From positions 1 through 34,242 of the forward strand of contig CAMCCH010000005.1 of assembly GCA_945873335.1 (NCBI GenBank): a stretch of 34,242 bases of DNA, in the 5' to 3' direction. The position numbers and the translations under genes are program-made. Shown in pieces: positions 11,795 to 23,591 of this stretch. Each line of letters starts with the position of its first letter. The stretch's first letter is position 1. Source of the stretch: Bifidobacterium breve. GTDB taxonomy: Bacteria > Actinomycetota > Actinomycetes > Nanopelagicales > Nanopelagicaceae. The notes under the pieces were generated by a model. That model was not told where the DNA came from. It saw nothing but the letters and a program-made list of their open reading frames with translations, and did not search any database.

Positions 11795-13276
11795 AAAAGA
11801 ATCACGCATTGGGTAAATGGCGAATATTCAACAAGTAAGGCTGCTCGTTCCGGCGATATTTACAATCCGGCAACTGGAGAAGTTATTGGAAGTGTGGATT
11901 TTGCAGATATCGCTCTTGTAGATCAAGCAGTTGGAGTTGCCACGGAAGCATTCAAAACATGGCGCCATAGTTCACTCACAAAACGCACACAAGTTCTATT
12001 TGCATTTCGCGAATTACTCAATGAAAATAAAGAAAAGCTTGCGGCAATCATTACTGAAGAGCATGGAAAAGTTCTCAGCGATGCTCTCGGTGAAGTTACT
12101 CGGGGTTTAGAAGTAGTTGAATTTTCTTGCGGTATCCCACACCTTCTCAAAGGTGGTTTCTCAGAAGAGGTTTCAACAGGCGTTGATGTTTATTCCATTC
12201 GTCAGGCACTTGGCCCTGTAGCAATTATTTCCCCATTCAATTTCCCTGCGATGGTTCCAATGTGGTTCTTCCCAGTTGCTATCGCATGTGGCAACACAGT
12301 GATTGTGAAACCTTCAGAGAAGGATCCAAGTGCTGCAATATTTATGGCGGAGTTATGGAAAAAAGCTGGATTGCCAGATGGTGTATTCAATGTTGTCCAT
12401 GGAGATAAAGAGAGCGTTGATGCTCTCCTTACGCACCCAGGGATTAAGTCTGTTTCTTTTGTTGGCTCAACACCTATTGCCCGCTATGTCTACGAAACTG
12501 GAACAAAAGCAGGTAAGCGCGTTCAAGCACTTGGCGGCGCAAAGAATCACATGGTTGTCTTGCCAGATGCTGATTTGGAATTAGCGGCAGATGCAGCAAT
12601 CAATGCAGGCTTTGGTTCAGCAGGTGAGCGTTGCATGGCTATTAGCGCACTCGTTGTAGTGGAACCAGTTGCTGATGCTCTCATTGAAAAAATTAGAACT
12701 CGTATGGCCAAGATTAAAACTGGTGATGGAACAAAAGGTTCAGATATGGGCCCACTAGTTACACGTGTACACCGCGATAAAGTCGCTTCATACATTGAAG
12801 CAGGAGTAAAAGAGGGTGCAACGCTTGTAGAAGATGGTCGCACAGTAAAAGTAGATGGCAATGGTTTTTGGCTTGGGCCAACACTTTTCGACAATGTGAA
12901 ATCTTCAATGAGTATCTATAAAGAAGAAATTTTTGGACCAGTTCTCAGTGTTATTCGCGTAAAGAGTTATGACGAAGCACTTGATCTAGTAAATAAGCAT
13001 GAATATGGAAATGGAACTGCAATATTTACAAATGATGGCGGTGCAGCCCGCCGCTATCAAAATGAAGTAGAAGTTGGAATGGTTGGTATCAACGTTCCAA
13101 TTCCAGTACCTATGGCTTATTACTCATTTGGTGGCTGGAAGAACTCACTCTTTGGTGATTCACACGCACATGGCACTGAAGGAGTTCACTTCTTTACTCG
13201 CGGCAAGGTTGTTACTAGCCGTTGGTTAGATCCAAGTCATGGCGGAATCAATTTAGGTTTCCCACAAAACACATAA
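11792..13276 (+). CDS. mmsA: Methylmalonate/malonate-semialdehyde dehydrogenase (CoA-acylating)
   Basis: This 494-aa aldehyde dehydrogenase has catalytic Cys281 in [11 protein letters not shown] and Asn150 in SPFNFP. The usual general-base Glu motif (ELGGK) is replaced by QALGGAKNH, the hallmark of the CoA-acylating MmsA/IolA branch. The C-terminal [31 protein letters not shown] is also diagnostic. It oxidises methylmalonate semialdehyde to propionyl-CoA, or malonate semialdehyde to acetyl-CoA, with CO2 release and NADH. No other inositol or valine genes are visible, so the divergent omega-aminotransferase (beta-alanine route) is the best local partner. Its stop overlaps the next gene's start (TAATG). 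Confidence 0.93.
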   Translation: [494 protein letters not shown]

Positions 13277-14805
13277 TGAGTTCTACACATTCTTTGTGGC
13301 AAGAGATTGAGTTTACATTTACTTCTTCTAAGCCTTATAAGAATGCATATACCGATGTAGAGGTTTGGGCAGATTTTACGTGTGATGATGGCACGGTAAT
13401 GCGGCGTCCAGGTTTTTGGACAGGTGGAAATAATTGGAAACTTCGTTTTGCTGCGCCGAAGGCTGGAAAATGGAAAGTCACGGTTTTTTCAAGCCATGAA
13501 GATGGCACCTTCAATTTCGAAGAAAATTTTGTAGTTACAAAGGAAAAATCAAGTGAAAATATTTTTTATAGAAAAGGATTTTGGTCGGTATCGCCAGGGG
13601 AGCGCAACCTAAAATTTCGTGACGGAAGTTCTGATCTCATCGTTGCAGATACCGCATGGGCTCTACCGTGGCGCGCAACTGTTGACGATGTAGAGATTTA
13701 TGCAAAAGATCGCAAAACTAAAGGCTTTAATGCAGCTCTTCTTATGGTTGTGCAACCAGATATGGGAGCACGCGGACCGCGCGATCGAAGAGCAGATGAA
13801 GGTTTTGGCGTTGGATTTGAAGATTTACATGAAGGACATATAAATCTTCTCAACCCTGAATATTTTGATTACCTTGATTCACTTATTTCAATACTCATTG
13901 AAAATGAAATCGTTCCTGTGTACTCACCACTATTTTTTGGTTTTGGTTGGAAAGGACTAGGAGTAATTGGACCCGTTGTTGATTCACAAGAGTATGCACG
14001 CTTTTGTCGCTACATCGTTGCACGATATGGCGCACGACCTGCAATCTATTTAGCTGGTGCTGATGGAACAGGCGTTGAAGTGCAGGTAGAAGTTGGTGGA
14101 AAAGAATTCCATGAATGGGATTGCTATTCACAACCAACAGGAATTCATTACAGGCCACATATCCACCCCAATGCGCATCAAAACGCTGACTGGCTAGATT
14201 TTCAGTGGTGCCAAACAGGACATGGTGGTGAACATATACAAGAGCGAGTTGCAGATATGTGGCGCAACCAACCAGAGCGTGCAGTTGCTAATGGCGAACC
14301 GTCATATGAAAACACAGGTGCAATTGGAAAATCTGCAGGGTGGTGGCAAGGACATGAAGCGTGGAGCAATCTCTGTGCTGGTTCAACAATGGGAGTTGTT
14401 TATGGTGCTGCTTGTTTATGGGGATGGCGCTTACATAAAGATGAAGTAGGACATAGCGATTTCTTTCTTGCACCAGGTTGCGGATGGCGCGAAGCACTCG
14501 ATTTTGAAGGAGCAACATATGTTGGTTTAGTTGGAAAAATATTGCGTGGATTATCTATTGCGCAGATACAACCAAGTTGGAGTGAAGCAATTTCACCACG
14601 AGGACTTATTGTCCATGGCAAACTATTTATTGGTTATCAAGAAAATGGTGGCCCACTCGATGTCCGAGGCGATGGAATCCCATTGAATTACAGGGTTATT
14701 GATCCCATGAGTGGAAAAGAATTATTACGTGGTCGGCGCGAGAAAATCGAGTCAATAATCCCAGATACTGGTACTGGCGCGCGAATTTATATCTGCGAAG
14801 CCTAA
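13276..14805 (+). CDS. DUF5060/DUF4038-like putative glycoside hydrolase
   Basis: The protein has 509 aa from the ATG overlapping the mmsA stop. The longer frame from 13222 lies inside mmsA and is rejected. The N-terminus (about 1-95) looks like an immunoglobulin-like DUF5060 domain (FTSSKPYKNAYTDVEVWADF, WKLRFAAPKAGKWKVTV). A TIM-barrel-type region follows (DUF4038-like: LIVADTAWALPWRATVDDVEIYAKDRKTKGFNAALL), with acidic residues in YLAGADGTGVEVQVEVGG and ANGEPSYE as catalytic candidates. The C-terminus has a short beta region. There is no signal peptide, so it is probably cytoplasmic and acts on imported glycosides. The family is recognised by pattern only; the substrate is unknown. Confidence 0.72.
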   Translation: MSSTHSLWQEIEFTFTSSKPYKNAYTDVEVWADFTCDDGTVMRRPGFWTGGNNWKLRFAAPKAGKWKVTVFSSHEDGTFNFEENFVVTKEKSSENIFYRKGFWSVSPGERNLKFRDGSSDLIVADTAWALPWRATVDDVEIYAKDRKTKGFNAALLMVVQPDMGARGPRDRRADEGFGVGFEDLHEGHINLLNPEYFDYLDSLISILIENEIVPVYSPLFFGFGWKGLGVIGPVVDSQEYARFCRYIVARYGARPAIYLAGADGTGVEVQVEVGGKEFHEWDCYSQPTGIHYRPHIHPNAHQNADWLDFQWCQTGHGGEHIQERVADMWRNQPERAVANGEPSYENTGAIGKSAGWWQGHEAWSNLCAGSTMGVVYGAACLWGWRLHKDEVGHSDFFLAPGCGWREALDFEGATYVGLVGKILRGLSIAQIQPSWSEAISPRGLIVHGKLFIGYQENGGPLDVRGDGIPLNYRVIDPMSGKELLRGRREKIESIIPDTGTGARIYICEA

Positions 14806-14808
14806 GAT
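14803..14808 (+). promoter_or_regulatory. -10 box TAAGAT before the orphan sugar permease
   Basis: TAAGAT overlaps the TAA stop of the glycosidase-like gene and ends 6 nt before the GTG at 14815. This is the leaderless spacing seen elsewhere in the window, so the permease may have its own promoter. Confidence 0.4.
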
Positions 14809-14814
14809 ACGTAA

Positions 14815-15636
14815 GTGCAAAAAGGACTTCAGGCAAAGAGCAAGATAGTCAATATCTTTCTCGTTGTTTCAATTATCTATTTTGCAATTCCAATTATGTT
14901 TCTCTTTGTTAGCTCAACAAAACCGCCGCAGGATTTTGGAAATACATTTTCATTATGGTTTGGAAATTCATTTAGCTTCTTCCAAAACCTCCAATGGTTA
15001 GTAGATTCAAATGGCGGTATTTATGTTGTGTGGCTGAAAAACACTATTTTTTATTCATTCACTGGTGCTATCGGCGCACTTTTGTGTTCGGCAATGGCAG
15101 GCTTTGCGATTGCTGTTTATAATTTTCACGGTGTACGACAGTTACAGGCCTTTATTCTATTTCTTGTAATGGTTCCAGCCAATACCCTCGTGCTCCCGCT
15201 CTTTATTTATTTTGCAAATTTGAATCTAATCAATACACCGTGGTCGGTTATTTTACCTTCACTCGTAAATCCATTGGGAACTTTTATTATTGCTTATTAC
15301 GCAAAAGAAAATTTACCTAAGGAACTCATCCAAGCGGCAAGACTTGATCGTGCAAGTGAAATCCGTATTTTTCTTCAACTATCAATTCCTATTTTGCGCC
15401 CCGCGCTTGCAACAGTCTTTCTACTTAATTTAGTAACTAACTGGAATAATTTTTATCTACCTTTGCTTATGTTCAATGAGACGAAGATGTTCCCATTATC
15501 AGTAGGCCTTGGAACTTCATATGGTGGGCCAGGATTGATTATGGGCGCTTTTGTTGCCATGGCCCCTATCTTGGTTGCATTTCTCTTCCTGCAACGCTTC
15601 TGGCTCAAAAATATTACTGCAGGTTCAGGCGTATAA
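14815..15636 (+). CDS. Carbohydrate ABC transporter permease (MalG-type), orphan
   Basis: This 273-aa inner-membrane permease has six predicted transmembrane segments. The ATPase-coupling EAA loop is visible in ELIQAARLDRASEIRIFLQLSIPILRPAL (about 180-208). The N-terminal segment IFLVVSIIYFAIPIMFLFVSSTKPPQDF is typical of MalG/UgpE-like proteins importing sugars with a binding protein. The start is GTG without a Shine-Dalgarno. No MalF-type partner, binding protein or sugar ATPase lies nearby; the flanks are a glycosidase-like gene and guaB1. It either works with a partner encoded elsewhere or is the last remnant of a lost operon. It is intact in frame with no sign of decay. Confidence 0.88.
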   Translation: MQKGLQAKSKIVNIFLVVSIIYFAIPIMFLFVSSTKPPQDFGNTFSLWFGNSFSFFQNLQWLVDSNGGIYVVWLKNTIFYSFTGAIGALLCSAMAGFAIAVYNFHGVRQLQAFILFLVMVPANTLVLPLFIYFANLNLINTPWSVILPSLVNPLGTFIIAYYAKENLPKELIQAARLDRASEIRIFLQLSIPILRPALATVFLLNLVTNWNNFYLPLLMFNETKMFPLSVGLGTSYGGPGLIMGAFVAMAPILVAFLFLQRFWLKNITAGSGV

Positions 15637-18584: not shown

Positions 18585-18932
18585 AACAATTCCATCTTTG
18601 ATTGTGTCAATACTGACACCGTCAACAGATACTTTATTTCCAGTTGGTGCCTGACCTAGAAATTCCGCACCAGTATGTGTTCCTGTTAGATGCCAGCGTG
18701 ATACGACGCGGTTACCTTCAACAATTACCTCTTGAACATCAAAGTGGAGATCAGGAAAAGCTACCTGCCACTTTTTCCATTGTTCTCTAAAACTCTCGCG
18801 ACCAACACCAAATTTTGGATCATTGCCAGCGGCATCGAGTGCAATAAAGCGGTCGATTGCGCTCTCATCTTTCTTATTCCATATTTGATCAAAGAAGTCA
18901 TAAGCAGCCTTGCGATTATTTTCTAGTGTCAT
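18516..18932 (-). CDS. SnoaL-like / ester cyclase-family protein (NTF2-like fold)
   Basis: This 138-aa protein has the NTF2-like SnoaL pattern: an N-terminal helix (NNRKAAYDFFDQIWNKKD), GRESFREQWKKWQVAFPDLHFDVQEVIVEGNRVVSRWHLTGTHTGAEFLGQAPTGNKVSVDGV and a C-terminal DGFDAWDSLGFRQQLG. Such proteins are small cyclases, isomerases or hydrolases, and many have no known function. Its start overlaps the NagA-type gene stop (ATGA), making it the last gene of the amino-sugar operon. The overlap of its 3' end with the EEP gene is antisense. A role in the amino-sugar pathway is not supported beyond position. Confidence 0.8.
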   Translation of the reverse strand: MTLENNRKAAYDFFDQIWNKKDESAIDRFIALDAAGNDPKFGVGRESFREQWKKWQVAFPDLHFDVQEVIVEGNRVVSRWHLTGTHTGAEFLGQAPTGNKVSVDGVSIDTIKDGIVLDGFDAWDSLGFRQQLGILPKD

Positions 18933-20026
18933 GAGTCAATTACAACTACCTCTCCGCTTTGTGTGAGTTCCAACAGATCTGCACTCATTCCAAGTGCAAT
19001 TTCACCGACATTGCCCATACCAATCTCCCCAGCAGCAAGTGCTGAAGAACAATTAACTGCATCTTCAATGGAAACCTTGAAATCTTTATACAATTTCAAG
19101 AATGCACGGTCCATTGTCAATGTGCTTCCAGCAAGTGATTTATTGCTAACAAGCCTTGCCACCCCTTTGGAAACCTCAACATCGAGTTCACCGATTTTGT
19201 ATTGTCCATCGCCCGTACCTGCAGCAGAGATTGCATCTGTTACAAGTATGGATCGATGCGATGCCAAAGCGAGAATCTCTTCGGTATCTTCCTTCTTTAT
19301 ATGCGTTCCGTCCAGAATCAATTCAAGAGATAGTCGATCATCGGCAAGTGCTACTTCAGTAATAGTTCCTGCATCATGGCCAAGCTTTGGCATGCCATTT
19401 GTGAAGTGCGTAATGATCGTTGCGCCGTAATCAATTGCTTGAAGCGCGATATGGGTCGATGCTTCTGTGTGACCAAGGGCGACAACTACTCCTTCTTCAA
19501 CAAGGAAATCAATTGCATCGAGTGCACCTTCTAATTCAGGGGCCAATGTCATCATTGAAATATTGCCTTGCCCGGCATCTAATAAGCGTTGCAATTCTTT
19601 CACAGAAGGGGTGCGCAACAGAGAAGGGTCGTGTGCCCCGCAGCGAGCATGTGAAAGATAGGGACCCTCTAGATGGATTCCCTTTATCGCACTTGTACCT
19701 ACATATGGATTAATTCTTTTGATTTGCTCAATGAGAATTTCAATAGGCTCGCTCACCAAACTTGCAAGCAGCGAAGTTGTTCCATACTTCTTATGCGCTT
19801 TAATAACTCGATCAATATCGTCGCTATCGTGGGATGAAAAATATGCACCGCCACCGCCATGACAATGAATATCTACAAAACCGGGAATAAGAATTCCTTT
19901 AACTACTTTCTCGGCCTTTTCATTAGCCCCATCTTCAATATGAGAAATCGTCTTATTTGATATCTCTAACCAAAAATTCTTTCGCAAGACTCCTTCAACT
20001 ACCCCAGATGCTGCTTGAATAATCAT
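18929..20026 (-). CDS. N-acetylglucosamine/galactosamine-6-phosphate deacetylase (NagA/AgaA family)
   Basis: This 365-aa amidohydrolase removes acetate from N-acetylhexosamine 6-phosphate. Metal and active-site motifs are visible in order: VDIHCHGGGG, the Glu in HLEGPYL, GHTEAS, THFTNGM and VTDAISAAG (catalytic Asp). The open frame begins at 20056, but the ATG at 20026 is chosen because GGGAGG lies 8 nt upstream. It overlaps nothing and starts 1 nt after the ROK kinase stop. The SIS protein and class II aldolase in the cluster suggest the galactosamine (AgaA) rather than the glucosamine (NagA) branch, but sequence alone does not decide. Confidence 0.92.
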   Translation of the reverse strand: MIIQAASGVVEGVLRKNFWLEISNKTISHIEDGANEKAEKVVKGILIPGFVDIHCHGGGGAYFSSHDSDDIDRVIKAHKKYGTTSLLASLVSEPIEILIEQIKRINPYVGTSAIKGIHLEGPYLSHARCGAHDPSLLRTPSVKELQRLLDAGQGNISMMTLAPELEGALDAIDFLVEEGVVVALGHTEASTHIALQAIDYGATIITHFTNGMPKLGHDAGTITEVALADDRLSLELILDGTHIKKEDTEEILALASHRSILVTDAISAAGTGDGQYKIGELDVEVSKGVARLVSNKSLAGSTLTMDRAFLKLYKDFKVSIEDAVNCSSALAAGEIGMGNVGEIALGMSADLLELTQSGEVVVIDS

Positions 20027-20027
20027 T

Positions 20028-20933
20028 TTAGTTACCTCCCTCAGGAAGTAAATCAAGTGCCATCATTGCGCAACCGATAGTTCCCGCTTGAGCCCCATAG
20101 TGCGCGATGACTAATCGTGGGACTCTTTGGAAAGTAAGTGAACCCGCTAGAGCTTTTGTAATTGGGTTGATCAATAAATTACCGGATTGTGATAGACCGC
20201 CACCAAAGATAATTACTTCTGGGGCAAGAACAGTGACAAGCATTTGGCAGGCCGTAGCGATTGAAGCCATTGCATCATTCCAAATTTTTTCAGCAAGAAC
20301 ATCACCACTGTGCGCAAGCGTTGCTATTTCTTCACTGCTGATGCCTGTTTTCCCAGATGCGTGCGCATAAGCCGATGTAATCGCTAAAGCAGAAGAAGCA
20401 GCTTCCAAGCATCCCTTTTTCCCACAGACACAATCAAATTTTGCGCCAACATCGACGTGGCCAATTTCTCCAGCAAAACCATCAGAGGATCTAATCTTTC
20501 CATCGATGATTAGCGCAGCAGCAATACCAGTACCTATTGGAATAAAGATTGCGTTATTGACACCTTTAGCAGCGCCGTTTCGAAGTTCGGCAAGTGCACC
20601 GGTTCGAACATCATGTCCAAATGCAACTGGAATATTTATTTCACGAGCAAGCAAGTCACGAATTGGAAGGTTCTTCCATCCCAAATTTCCTGACCATCTA
20701 GAGATTCCATTTGTCTCATCGAGTGCACCTGGTACTGCTAATCCGACTGCTTTGATTTCTCCAGGTGATGCAATTTTTGAAAGTAGCTCACTAATCACTT
20801 TTACGGTTTTGTTGCCATCTAAATCATTATGTGGAGTTGGTGCGTTAGCTGTTGCAATAATGCGCAAGTCTGCATCTACTAAGGCACTCTTGATACTTGT
20901 CCCACCAACATCAACAGCCGCGACAAGTTTCAC
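20028..20933 (-). CDS. ROK-family sugar kinase (N-acetylhexosamine kinase or glucokinase-like)
   Basis: This 301-aa protein has the ATP-binding motif VDVGGTSIKSAL at the N-terminus, the catalytic region GHDVRTGALAEL, the ROK signature around GEIGHVDVG, and a zinc cluster CVCGKKGCLE. It phosphorylates a hexose or N-acetylhexosamine at C6. It sits between a SIS isomerase/deaminase and a deacetylase, so it most likely makes GalNAc-6-P or GlcNAc-6-P from sugar imported without a PTS. GTG start; a TAGACT box ends 7 nt upstream, so an internal leaderless promoter is possible. ManNAc or glucose are other possible substrates. Confidence 0.9.
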   Translation of the reverse strand: MKLVAAVDVGGTSIKSALVDADLRIIATANAPTPHNDLDGNKTVKVISELLSKIASPGEIKAVGLAVPGALDETNGISRWSGNLGWKNLPIRDLLAREINIPVAFGHDVRTGALAELRNGAAKGVNNAIFIPIGTGIAAALIIDGKIRSSDGFAGEIGHVDVGAKFDCVCGKKGCLEAASSALAITSAYAHASGKTGISSEEIATLAHSGDVLAEKIWNDAMASIATACQMLVTVLAPEVIIFGGGLSQSGNLLINPITKALAGSLTFQRVPRLVIAHYGAQAGTIGCAMMALDLLPEGGN

Positions 20934-20940
20934 GCTGGCT

Positions 20941-20946
20941 AGTCTA
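20941..20946 (-). promoter_or_regulatory. Possible internal -10 box TAGACT before the ROK kinase
   Basis: On the minus strand TAGACT ends 7 nt before the GTG of the ROK gene, which lacks a Shine-Dalgarno. It lies in the 15-nt gap after the SIS gene, so it would add to, not replace, the upstream operon promoter. Confidence 0.3.
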
Positions 20947-20948
20947 AA

Positions 20949-21839
20949 TCACTTATCTAAAATGATGGATCTTGACAGACCTCGTGGGTTATCTGCATCT
21001 AACCCACGCTTCTTCGCGGTGGCGATAGCAACGCGGTGTGCTTTGATTAGATGAGCCATTGGGTCCAGCGTGCTGTTTTCAAATAGCGCGCCAGTCTTTT
21101 TGATATCACGAATCAAATCATCTGGAATCTCACCAAATGCCCACACAGCGCGACCCGGTTCTGAAATTGAAAGTGGTCCATGGCGGTAATCAAGTGCAGG
21201 GTATGCCTCTGCCCAAAATTGTGAAGATTCGCGAGTTTTGAGCGCTGCTTCTTGAGCAAGGCCGACTGTCCATCCACGACCAAGAAAAGTTATTTGCTCA
21301 ACATTTACTAAATCGCCAAGGTCACAGGTGAGCGCCTCTTGCGCATCTTTAATAATGGAACGAAGATCAAATCCTAAATGTATTCGCAATAAACCAAGAG
21401 CTGCTGTCGCCCAACGAGTTTGCAGCACTGATTTTTCATCAGCGAAAGGCATAACAATCGAATGCGTTGCATGTTCAGTTACAGGTGAGCCGTGAACTGA
21501 AGTCAACATAACAGAAGGAATTTTTGTTTTTTCAAGCATCTTTACAACTTCGGTTGTTGTTCCTGATCGCGAAATTGAAACAATTTTGTCGTACTTACGT
21601 TCGTAATTCATTTCGGATCCAACATAAACATCAGTTTCACCATGGCCAGCAGCTTCACGAAGTGACGCGTAAGCCATAGACATGAACCAAGAACTTCCAC
21701 AACCAACTACTGCAACCTTCTCGCCCTTTTCGGGTAATAGATGGAGTGAACTTGGCGCGAAGTCAGCAACTTGTGCCCAGATAGATGGTTGCGACGCTAT
21801 CTCTGCATCTGCATATTCGCAGGCAACTTTGATGCTCAT
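20949..21839 (-). CDS. SIS-domain sugar-phosphate isomerase/deaminase (AgaS or GlmS-C-like)
   Basis: This 296-aa protein consists of two SIS domains without the glutaminase domain of GlmS. The first contains VAVVGCGSSWFM and SISRSGTTTEVV (phosphosugar-binding Ser/Thr loop). The second spans about 150-290 with FLGRGWTVGLAQEAALKTRE, and EAYPALDYRHGPLS corresponds to the C-terminal GlmS active-site region. It probably deaminates and isomerises galactosamine 6-phosphate to tagatose 6-phosphate (AgaS) or glucosamine 6-phosphate to fructose 6-phosphate (NagB-II). It is first in the operon with the ROK kinase and deacetylase. Confidence 0.88.
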   Translation of the reverse strand: MSIKVACEYADAEIASQPSIWAQVADFAPSSLHLLPEKGEKVAVVGCGSSWFMSMAYASLREAAGHGETDVYVGSEMNYERKYDKIVSISRSGTTTEVVKMLEKTKIPSVMLTSVHGSPVTEHATHSIVMPFADEKSVLQTRWATAALGLLRIHLGFDLRSIIKDAQEALTCDLGDLVNVEQITFLGRGWTVGLAQEAALKTRESSQFWAEAYPALDYRHGPLSISEPGRAVWAFGEIPDDLIRDIKKTGALFENSTLDPMAHLIKAHRVAIATAKKRGLDADNPRGLSRSIILDK

Positions 21840-21847
21840 AATGCGAA

Positions 21848-21853
21848 ACCATA
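21848..21853 (-). promoter_or_regulatory. -10 box TATGGT, promoter of the SIS-ROK-deacetylase operon
   Basis: On the minus strand TATGGT ends 8 nt before the ATG at 21839 and no Shine-Dalgarno is visible. It fits the leaderless pattern. The palindrome at 21871-21888 lies directly upstream of it. Confidence 0.45.
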
Positions 21854-21870
21854 TGCGAGTGATTGGAAAG

Positions 21871-21888
21871 AGTCAAAAAATTTTGACT
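21871..21888. promoter_or_regulatory. Operator-like perfect palindrome AGTCAAAA-AA-TTTTGACT
   Basis: Two perfect 8-bp inverted arms are separated by 2 nt, centred between the divergent amino-sugar operons. The palindrome ends 5 nt before the DeoR gene's -10 box (TATAGT) and lies upstream of the SIS promoter. It is therefore well placed for the adjacent DeoR-family protein to control both directions. Binding is inferred. Confidence 0.6.
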
Positions 21889-21893
21889 ACTTG

Positions 21894-21899
21894 TATAGT
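21894..21899 (+). promoter_or_regulatory. -10 box TATAGT for the DeoR-family regulator gene
   Basis: TATAGT is preceded by TTG. Transcription would begin near 21906, giving a leader of about 50 nt with a good Shine-Dalgarno (GAGGAG, 21947-21952). This gene is therefore leadered, unlike many neighbours. Confidence 0.5.
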
Positions 21900-21918
21900 A
21901 AAGTGAGCATAAACAATC

Positions 21919-21934
21919 ATATGCTTGCGCATAT
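21919..21934. repeat. Inverted repeat ATATGC-TTGC-GCATAT in the DeoR gene leader
   Basis: Two 6-bp perfect inverted arms with a 4-nt spacer sit between the -10 box and the Shine-Dalgarno of the DeoR gene. CATATGC also occurs alone at 21850-21856 near the SIS promoter. It could be a second operator or an mRNA hairpin. Confidence 0.45.
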
Positions 21935-21958
21935 CTATTCATTTACGAGGAGAAATGC

Positions 21959-22753
21959 ATGAATCGTCAACTTCGCCTAAGCAGCATCCTCGAACTTGTC
22001 GTAGAAAAAGGAAGCGTTGAAGTCGATGATGCATCTCGAATTCTTGGAGTATCGGCTGCAACGATCAGACGAGATTTTGATGTTCTAGCAAAGCGCCAAT
22101 TACTCACGCGAACCCACGGCGGAGCTGTAGCAACGGGCAGCTCTCTTGGATTGCCGCTTACTTATAAGGTAGCAAAAGATGACAAAGTAAAACAAAGAAT
22201 TGCAAAAGTAGCGGCTGAAATGGTTACACGCCATCAAATAATTGGAATTAATGGCGGTACAACATCTACCGAAGTTGCACGTGCGCTCGCTGCAAGAACT
22301 GAGTTCGCAGCTAGAGATGCCCAAGAACATTCACCAGCACTGACAGTTGTAACAAATGCGGTAAATATTGCAGCAGAGTTGACTGTCCGCCACCAAATAA
22401 AAATCGTTGTTACCGGTGGTGTAGCACGCCCACAATCATATGAATTGACTGGCCCTTTCGCAGAAGAGGTACTGAAGGAAGTAAATATTGACATAACATT
22501 TCTTGGTGTTAGCGCATTCAATACAACTATGGGAGCTGCGGCCAATCATGAAGATGAAGCAAAAGTAAATCGTCAAATGGTTCAGCGATCAAAAAGAGTT
22601 GTAGTCGTTGCAGATAGCTCGAAATTTACACGATCTGCTTTTGCGACAATCTGTGCTGCAGATCAAATTAATACGATTATCACTGATTCCGGAACAGATG
22701 AAAAAATGCTCGAAGAATTACGCCAACTCGGAATAGAAATAGTTATAGCCTAA
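21959..22753 (+). CDS. DeoR/GlpR-family transcriptional regulator (probable amino-sugar repressor)
   Basis: This 264-aa protein has an N-terminal winged helix-turn-helix (VEVDDASRILGVSAATIRRDFDVLAKRQLLTRTHGGA, about 19-55) with the family's TIRRD recognition helix. The C-terminal sugar-phosphate sensor has GINGGTTSTEVA (about 99-110), ADSSKF and a Rossmann-like pattern. It probably represses the flanking operons until a phosphosugar binds. The ATG at 21959 is 6 nt after GAGGAG; the ATG at 21955 is too close and out of frame. It is followed 1 nt later by the aldolase gene. The E. coli analogue in an Aga cluster would be AgaR. Confidence 0.92.
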   Translation: MNRQLRLSSILELVVEKGSVEVDDASRILGVSAATIRRDFDVLAKRQLLTRTHGGAVATGSSLGLPLTYKVAKDDKVKQRIAKVAAEMVTRHQIIGINGGTTSTEVARALAARTEFAARDAQEHSPALTVVTNAVNIAAELTVRHQIKIVVTGGVARPQSYELTGPFAEEVLKEVNIDITFLGVSAFNTTMGAAANHEDEAKVNRQMVQRSKRVVVVADSSKFTRSAFATICAADQINTIITDSGTDEKMLEELRQLGIEIVIA

Positions 22754-22754
22754 A

Positions 22755-23591
22755 ATGACTCAACTTAACCCACATAAAATAATTACAGGAGAGTTAAAAA
22801 ATGCCGCTGCAGTAGGAGCATTCAATGTAATCCTTCTTGAACATGCAGAGGCTATTGTCGCTGGTGCAGAAAAAGTGAAACTGCCTGTCGTTCTACAAAT
22901 TAGCCAGAATTGCGTTGATTACCATGGCAGCCTTAAACCAATTGCACTTGCATCTAAAGCTATTGCGCAAGATTCTTTGGTAAATGTCTCTTTGCATTTA
23001 GATCACGCAGAGAGCGAATTATTAGTTCAGGAGGCACTCGATTTAGGCTTCGACAGCGTTATGTTTGATGGTTCTAAGTTGGACTATGCAAGCAATGTGC
23101 AGGCAAGTATTCGAATGGCACAACTATGCCGACAATACGGAGCAACAATCGAGGTAGAACTTGGTGAAGTTGGCGGCAAAGATGGAGTTCACGCACCAGG
23201 GATTCGAACTAATCCTGCTGAGGCACAGGCATTTGTTGAAGCTACAGGAGTGGATTTATTGGCGGTAGCGGTTGGAAGTTCACATGCGATGACAACTCGT
23301 GATGCCACTTTAGATTTTGAATTGATTTCTCAGATTGCCAAGACTGTAAGTGTCCCATTGGTTCTACATGGATCATCCGGGGTAAGTGATGAAGATTTAC
23401 AAAGGGCAGTGAGAGCTGGAATGCGCAAGGTAAATATTGCAACACATCTCAATCATCTTTTTACCGATGAAATTCGTGAAATTCTAAACTCGGATTCAAA
23501 AATTGTAGATCCTCGAAAGTATGTGAAAAGTGCTAGAAATAAAGTTGCCGATGAATGTGGGCGACTATTGCAGTTACTAGCCCTTTCCTAA
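22755..23591 (+). CDS. Class II fructose/tagatose-bisphosphate aldolase (GatY/KbaY-like)
   Basis: This 278-aa zinc aldolase has the catalytic and metal motif SLHLDHAES, a second metal region EVELGEVGG, VLHGSSGV and the phosphate-binding end KVNIATHLN. Length and motifs match the short GatY/KbaY/AgaY branch better than the longer FbaA type. It cleaves tagatose 1,6-bisphosphate, or fructose 1,6-bisphosphate, into dihydroxyacetone phosphate and glyceraldehyde 3-phosphate. It is coupled to the DeoR regulator gene and completes the amino-sugar route except for a tagatose-6-phosphate kinase, which is not in the window. Confidence 0.9.
   Translation: MTQLNPHKIITGELKNAAAVGAFNVILLEHAEAIVAGAEKVKLPVVLQISQNCVDYHGSLKPIALASKAIAQDSLVNVSLHLDHAESELLVQEALDLGFDSVMFDGSKLDYASNVQASIRMAQLCRQYGATIEVELGEVGGKDGVHAPGIRTNPAEAQAFVEATGVDLLAVAVGSSHAMTTRDATLDFELISQIAKTVSVPLVLHGSSGVSDEDLQRAVRAGMRKVNIATHLNHLFTDEIREILNSDSKIVDPRKYVKSARNKVADECGRLLQLLALS

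Follow-up and report, generated by a model that had tools for sequence, protein, structure and literature searches.

We propose that a divergent five-gene cluster probably encodes a streamlined route from N-acetylgalactosamine (GalNAc) to triose phosphates, in which AgaS would have been replaced by a non-orthologous SIS-domain protein and for which an importer and a tagatose-6-phosphate kinase would now be borrowed. The window, i.e. the whole stretch of DNA that was analysed (34,242 nucleotides), is contig C5 of a host genome of 1.30 Mb that is 84% complete (G000). Relatives of the window include a Candidatus Planktophila record, which makes an acI-type freshwater actinobacterium of the Planktophila type the most likely host. 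Three MAGs titled Bifidobacterium breve (L032, L037 and L039) are very close to the acI-type lineage and look mislabelled.

A first-pass annotation had described a ROK kinase, a deacetylase, a SIS protein and an aldolase around a DeoR regulator, and this description was borne out, as all five ORFs are intact and their families matched. The genes form a minus-strand unit in the order SIS-ROK-NagA and a plus-strand unit of DeoR-aldolase, separated by a divergent gap of 119 bases:

18929 to 20026, minus strand: NagA/AgaA-like HexNAc-6-phosphate deacetylase (TIGR00221, PDB relative, motifs)
20028 to 20933, minus strand: ROK-family sugar kinase, proposed GalNAc (HexNAc) kinase (PF00480, 187 bits)
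20949 to 21839, minus strand: SIS-domain protein of 296 residues, proposed GalN-6-P deaminase/isomerase, not AgaS (PF01380; GlmD, 90 bits)
21840 to 21958, no strand: divergent intergenic control region with promoter-like hexamers before the SIS start
21959 to 22753, plus strand: AgaR-like DeoR-family regulator (NF040755, 196 bits; HTH_DeoR and DeoRC domains)
22755 to 23591, plus strand: class II aldolase of the tagatose-1,6-bisphosphate type (PF01116, 273 bits; motif and clade)

The grouping is not due to chance, as no more than 5 kb separate the aldolase gene from the SIS gene in 37/37 loci of a neighbourhood table, which holds the 17 loci closest to the window and 20 more distant actinomycete loci, usually together with ROK and DeoR genes. 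Exceptions were seen outside this table: the decayed copies at L039:5604-6697 and in L006 (G002) keep a complete SIS gene and, after it, a ROK stub of some 70 residues, L043 and L078 have no aldolase nearby, and some contigs end early. NagA is missing from the vicinity of some distant clusters, which may share one encoded elsewhere. In another part of the window, a single sugar ABC permease gene comes after an apiosidase-like glycosidase gene (13222-15636), with neither a binding protein nor a partner permease adjoining it.

In a profile search, the deacetylase scored 219 bits against TIGR00221, just below the cutoff of 226, and its best solved relative was the NagA structure 6fv3 (240 bits). 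Its sequence, in which the motifs GFVDIHCHG, HLEGP, LGHTEAS, THFTNGM and VTDAISAAG were read, is that of a NagA-like HexNAc-6-phosphate deacetylase, an enzyme that an Aga pathway needs. As its start, the ATG at 20026 is preferred over the TTG at 20056, the listed ORF end, because the TTG overlaps the ROK gene and relatives such as L035 start at the ATG. The best subfamily of the ROK kinase was TIGR00744 (165 bits, cutoff 260), followed by NanK at 111 bits, and the regulator matched NCBIfam AgaR best, but below its cutoff (196 against 260 bits). Directly before the SIS start, the control region carries TTGACT (21876-21871), a spacer of 17 bases and TATGGT (21853-21848); TTGACT and a -10-like hexamer were read by eye at the same place in relatives. 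The position of this putative promoter suggests that the SIS transcript may be leaderless.

The cluster aldolase scores almost equally against Fba (233 bits) and GatY (226 bits); its assignment was made on the active-site signature and the tree. FbaA Asp288 mediates FBP cleavage (PMC5434028). In the alignment, its column holds Ala or Ser in all 40 cluster aldolases, the window enzyme having Ala in the motif KVNIATHLN, whereas it holds Asp in 24/24 Fba proteins of related genomes and Ala in both KbaY and GatY of E. coli. The window aldolase thus lacks the Asp that marks a housekeeping Fba. The host genome's own Fba fragment reads KMNIDTDTQ, so the genome has in the cluster a second aldolase, distinct from its Fba. 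In a tree that has deep joins on long branches and was used for the separation from Fba and the placement of G039 only, the cluster aldolases are set off from Fba in a single clade, which also takes in the G039 aldolase. In G039 (L245:6990-11189), that aldolase gene stands beside genes for AgaS (452 bits) and KbaZ (630 bits). Because of the Ala at the Asp288 column and the clade shared with an AgaS-linked aldolase, we assign the cluster aldolase, by its sequence, to the tagatose-1,6-bisphosphate type and not to housekeeping Fba.

The SIS protein is not AgaS. It scored 90 bits against GlmD, 84 bits against the GlmS type and 24 bits against AgaS (TIGR02815/cd05010), for which the cutoff is 529, and it reached 33 bits against NagB-II, with a cutoff of 430; it carries DYRHGPLS where AgaS has GFRHGPKS. 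In a tree made by a quick method, with long branches flagged, it groups with proteins of Jiangella, Amycolatopsis, Knoellia, Mycetocola, Aquiluna and others, apart from AgaS, GlmS and the NagB-II-like proteins of 345 residues from the same genus. Its predicted structure (pLDDT 90.7) best matched 2cb0, the glucosamine-6-phosphate deaminase of P. furiosus, among PDB entries (TM 0.81). The protein is thus of its own family, with a fold nearest to an archaeal glucosamine-6-phosphate deaminase. A GlmD-like fold therefore appears to occupy the position at which the neighbouring genes imply an AgaS step, and the best reading is a non-orthologous replacement of AgaS. A NagS-like dehydratase was considered as its identity and rejected, as that enzyme is described as MurQ-related (PMC12680351) and so belongs to another family.

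The proposed GalNAc pathway was accordingly upheld in part: the aldolase signature and clade, the linkage to AgaS and KbaZ in G039 and the PfkB gene of full clusters speak for it, but the SIS protein is not the expected AgaS. The first-pass annotation had also named a grouping that would tell against GalNAc, namely the SIS protein with glucosamine-6-phosphate deaminases and the aldolase with fructose-bisphosphate aldolases. The former does lie nearer to GlmD and the GlmS type than to AgaS, but the latter does not group with Fba, and the readings that involve GlcNAc are therefore weakened. In the first of these, which we consider unlikely, the SIS protein would be a GlcN-6-P deaminase yielding fructose-6-phosphate, from which PFK would make FBP for the cluster aldolase as a second FBP aldolase. 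This would agree with the best family and fold matches of the SIS protein, whose closest characterised relatives act on glucosamine-6-phosphate, and with the gene content of G000, where no NagB was found and the only other SIS match is GlmS-sized; GlcNAc uptake by acI bacteria is also reported in literature cited by PMC5574706. However, the genome has an Fba of its own that bears the FBP signature, the FBP-contacting Asp is missing from the cluster aldolases, and GlcNAc can be catabolised without a dedicated aldolase and without a PfkB in the cluster. Moreover, G036 of the same genus has a different locus, apparently for GlcNAc, in which a NagB-II-like SIS gene (NagB-II, 218 bits) is convergent with a NagA gene (L233:8046-10167).

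GH20 hexosaminidases often act on both epimers, and the GH20 and NagA genes of the host fit GlcNAc as well as GalNAc. The ROK kinase, deacetylase and SIS protein could then take both sugars, GlcNAc to fructose-6-phosphate and GalNAc to tagatose-6-phosphate, as would suit a genome with a single candidate hexosamine-6-phosphate deaminase. NagA of S. coelicolor is active on GalNAc-6-P (PMC12680351), but agaS and nagB of E. coli do not cross-complement (PMC3668189), and we regard such a dual pathway as quite unlikely.

Returning to the GalNAc pathway, relatives indicate which of its genes have gone. Of the 20 distant actinomycete loci, 19 include a PfkB kinase gene of the 1-PFK/LacC type in the cluster, against 0 of the 17 closest ones. 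In many loci, among them L038, L040, L047 and L072, genes for an importer (one binding protein and two permeases) separate DeoR from SIS; the window lineage has none there. Because the locus of other actinobacteria holds both, we infer that importer and PfkB kinase are ancestral and were lost in the window lineage. The earlier statement that importer and tagatose-6-phosphate kinase are missing thus holds for the window but not as a trait of the locus. Targeted searches of the 84% complete G000 gave no orthologue of the cluster PfkB (best 25 bits), and none was found in G002, G004, G006, G020 or G035; G004 (94% complete) and G035 (95%) thus agree on the missing kinase. Among the genomes of L032-L047, only a distant orthologue was found, in that of L043. 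The search of G000 for the cluster binding protein likewise gave no orthologue, its best match (116 bits) lying beside apparent arabinose genes. Neither a dedicated tagatose-6-phosphate kinase of the LacC/PfkB type nor a dedicated importer was thus found in the cluster or in G000.

Several substitutes were considered. Four binding proteins of the same class in G000 adjoin other glycosidase or arabinose-type genes, none of them for amino sugars by sequence, and were rejected as parts of an importer serving the locus. The 1-PFK-like kinase of G001 belongs to an apparent operon with DeoR and PTS genes (L232:5665-9328), though HPr is rare in the genus, and those in the genomes of L043, L050, L051 and L052 (L240-L243) lie away from the cluster beside an apparent class I aldolase. 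The KbaZ/GatZ route, a tagatose-6-phosphate/fructose-6-phosphate epimerase route shown for E. coli (PMC11907403), was set aside, as no KbaZ (PF08013) was found in G000 or the genus sample, G004 and G006 included. The suggestion to look elsewhere for a phosphofructokinase or tagatose-6-phosphate kinase yielded, besides the lack of a PfkB orthologue, a single PFK in G000 (L230:2736-3761; C67:2739-3623), which by its motifs GGEDT and PKTIDND and its mixed family TIGR02483 may use pyrophosphate.

With no dedicated kinase or importer left, two steps lack genes of their own and the cluster could be decaying. That it is a remnant supporting growth on no amino sugar is very unlikely: losses do vary among relatives, from the PfkB and ABC genes to most of the cluster in L039/G002, but the five ORFs are intact and conserved in the window lineage (SIS 92-99%, aldolase 75-98%), and GH20 is retained together with them.

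In the GalNAc pathway that we propose, an imported beta-HexNAc glycoside would be cut by the GH20 hexosaminidase encoded at C51, probably in the cytosol, as no obvious signal peptide was seen by eye. In the genus sample, which did not include G035, GH20 is confined to three genomes that each have the complete cluster (G000, G004 and G006), and G020 carries the cluster but lacks GH20. GH20 adjoins the aldolase in L038, L040, L042 and L072. The ROK kinase would phosphorylate GalNAc at O6, the NagA-like enzyme would deacetylate the product, and the SIS protein would deaminate and isomerise GalN-6-P to tagatose-6-phosphate. Tagatose-1,6-bisphosphate would be formed by a borrowed kinase, for which the single PFK is the likeliest candidate, and cleaved by the cluster aldolase to DHAP and glyceraldehyde-3-phosphate, while the AgaR-like regulator may control the divergent promoters. 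A PfkB-type kinase gene and a three-gene ABC importer would have belonged to the ancestral locus as well and disappeared later in this lineage.

A broader proposal is offered tentatively, as a serious possibility: that this SIS family, to which no function has been assigned, supplies the galactosamine-6-phosphate deaminase for a GalNAc pathway of the ABC type that is widespread among actinobacteria but escapes annotation based on AgaS, and that streamlined freshwater lineages still run the pathway with no tagatose-6-phosphate kinase of its own, the PFK of the cell acting on tagatose-6-phosphate. If true, counts of GalNAc use among actinobacteria are too low, since the AgaS-family deaminase serves as the signature gene of the GalNAc pathway in at least one published pipeline (PMC5583593). 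Another gain would be a testable class of substrates for the acI-type bacteria that abound in fresh water, together with an example of gene-by-gene paring of a pathway during genome streamlining.

With the E. coli aga/kba regulon, the window cluster shares a regulator that is AgaR-like by its best family match, a deacetylase and a KbaY-type aldolase with the same Ala signature, but it has no PTS and no KbaZ, and its SIS protein is not AgaS. Neither a PTS nor an importer was found in the cluster interval, and neither HPr nor NagB (PF01182) was found in G000, G004 or G006; together with the ROK kinase, the lack of HPr confirms the PTS-free layout noted in the first-pass annotation. This layout is already known from the Shewanella Aga pathway of AgaP, AgaK, AgaA-II and AgaS (PMC2996990; Leyn et al. 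2012, via PMC12118421), where a sugar kinase also replaces uptake-coupled phosphorylation; Shewanella relies on AgaS and a dedicated permease, whereas the window locus encodes another SIS family and lacks a permease gene. The Aga locus of G039 shares the aldolase clade and a DeoR-type regulator, but has true AgaS and KbaZ instead of the window SIS family. Before the (K/R)HGP motif, two residues upstream, most members of the SIS group have Asp and some have Glu, in contrast with the Glu of GlmS. With the archaeal GlmD and NagB-II glucosamine-6-phosphate deaminases of the SIS type, the window protein shares its fold and the SIS sequence motifs, but at about 26% identity it stands in a group of its own that is linked to a tagatose-1,6-bisphosphate-type aldolase.
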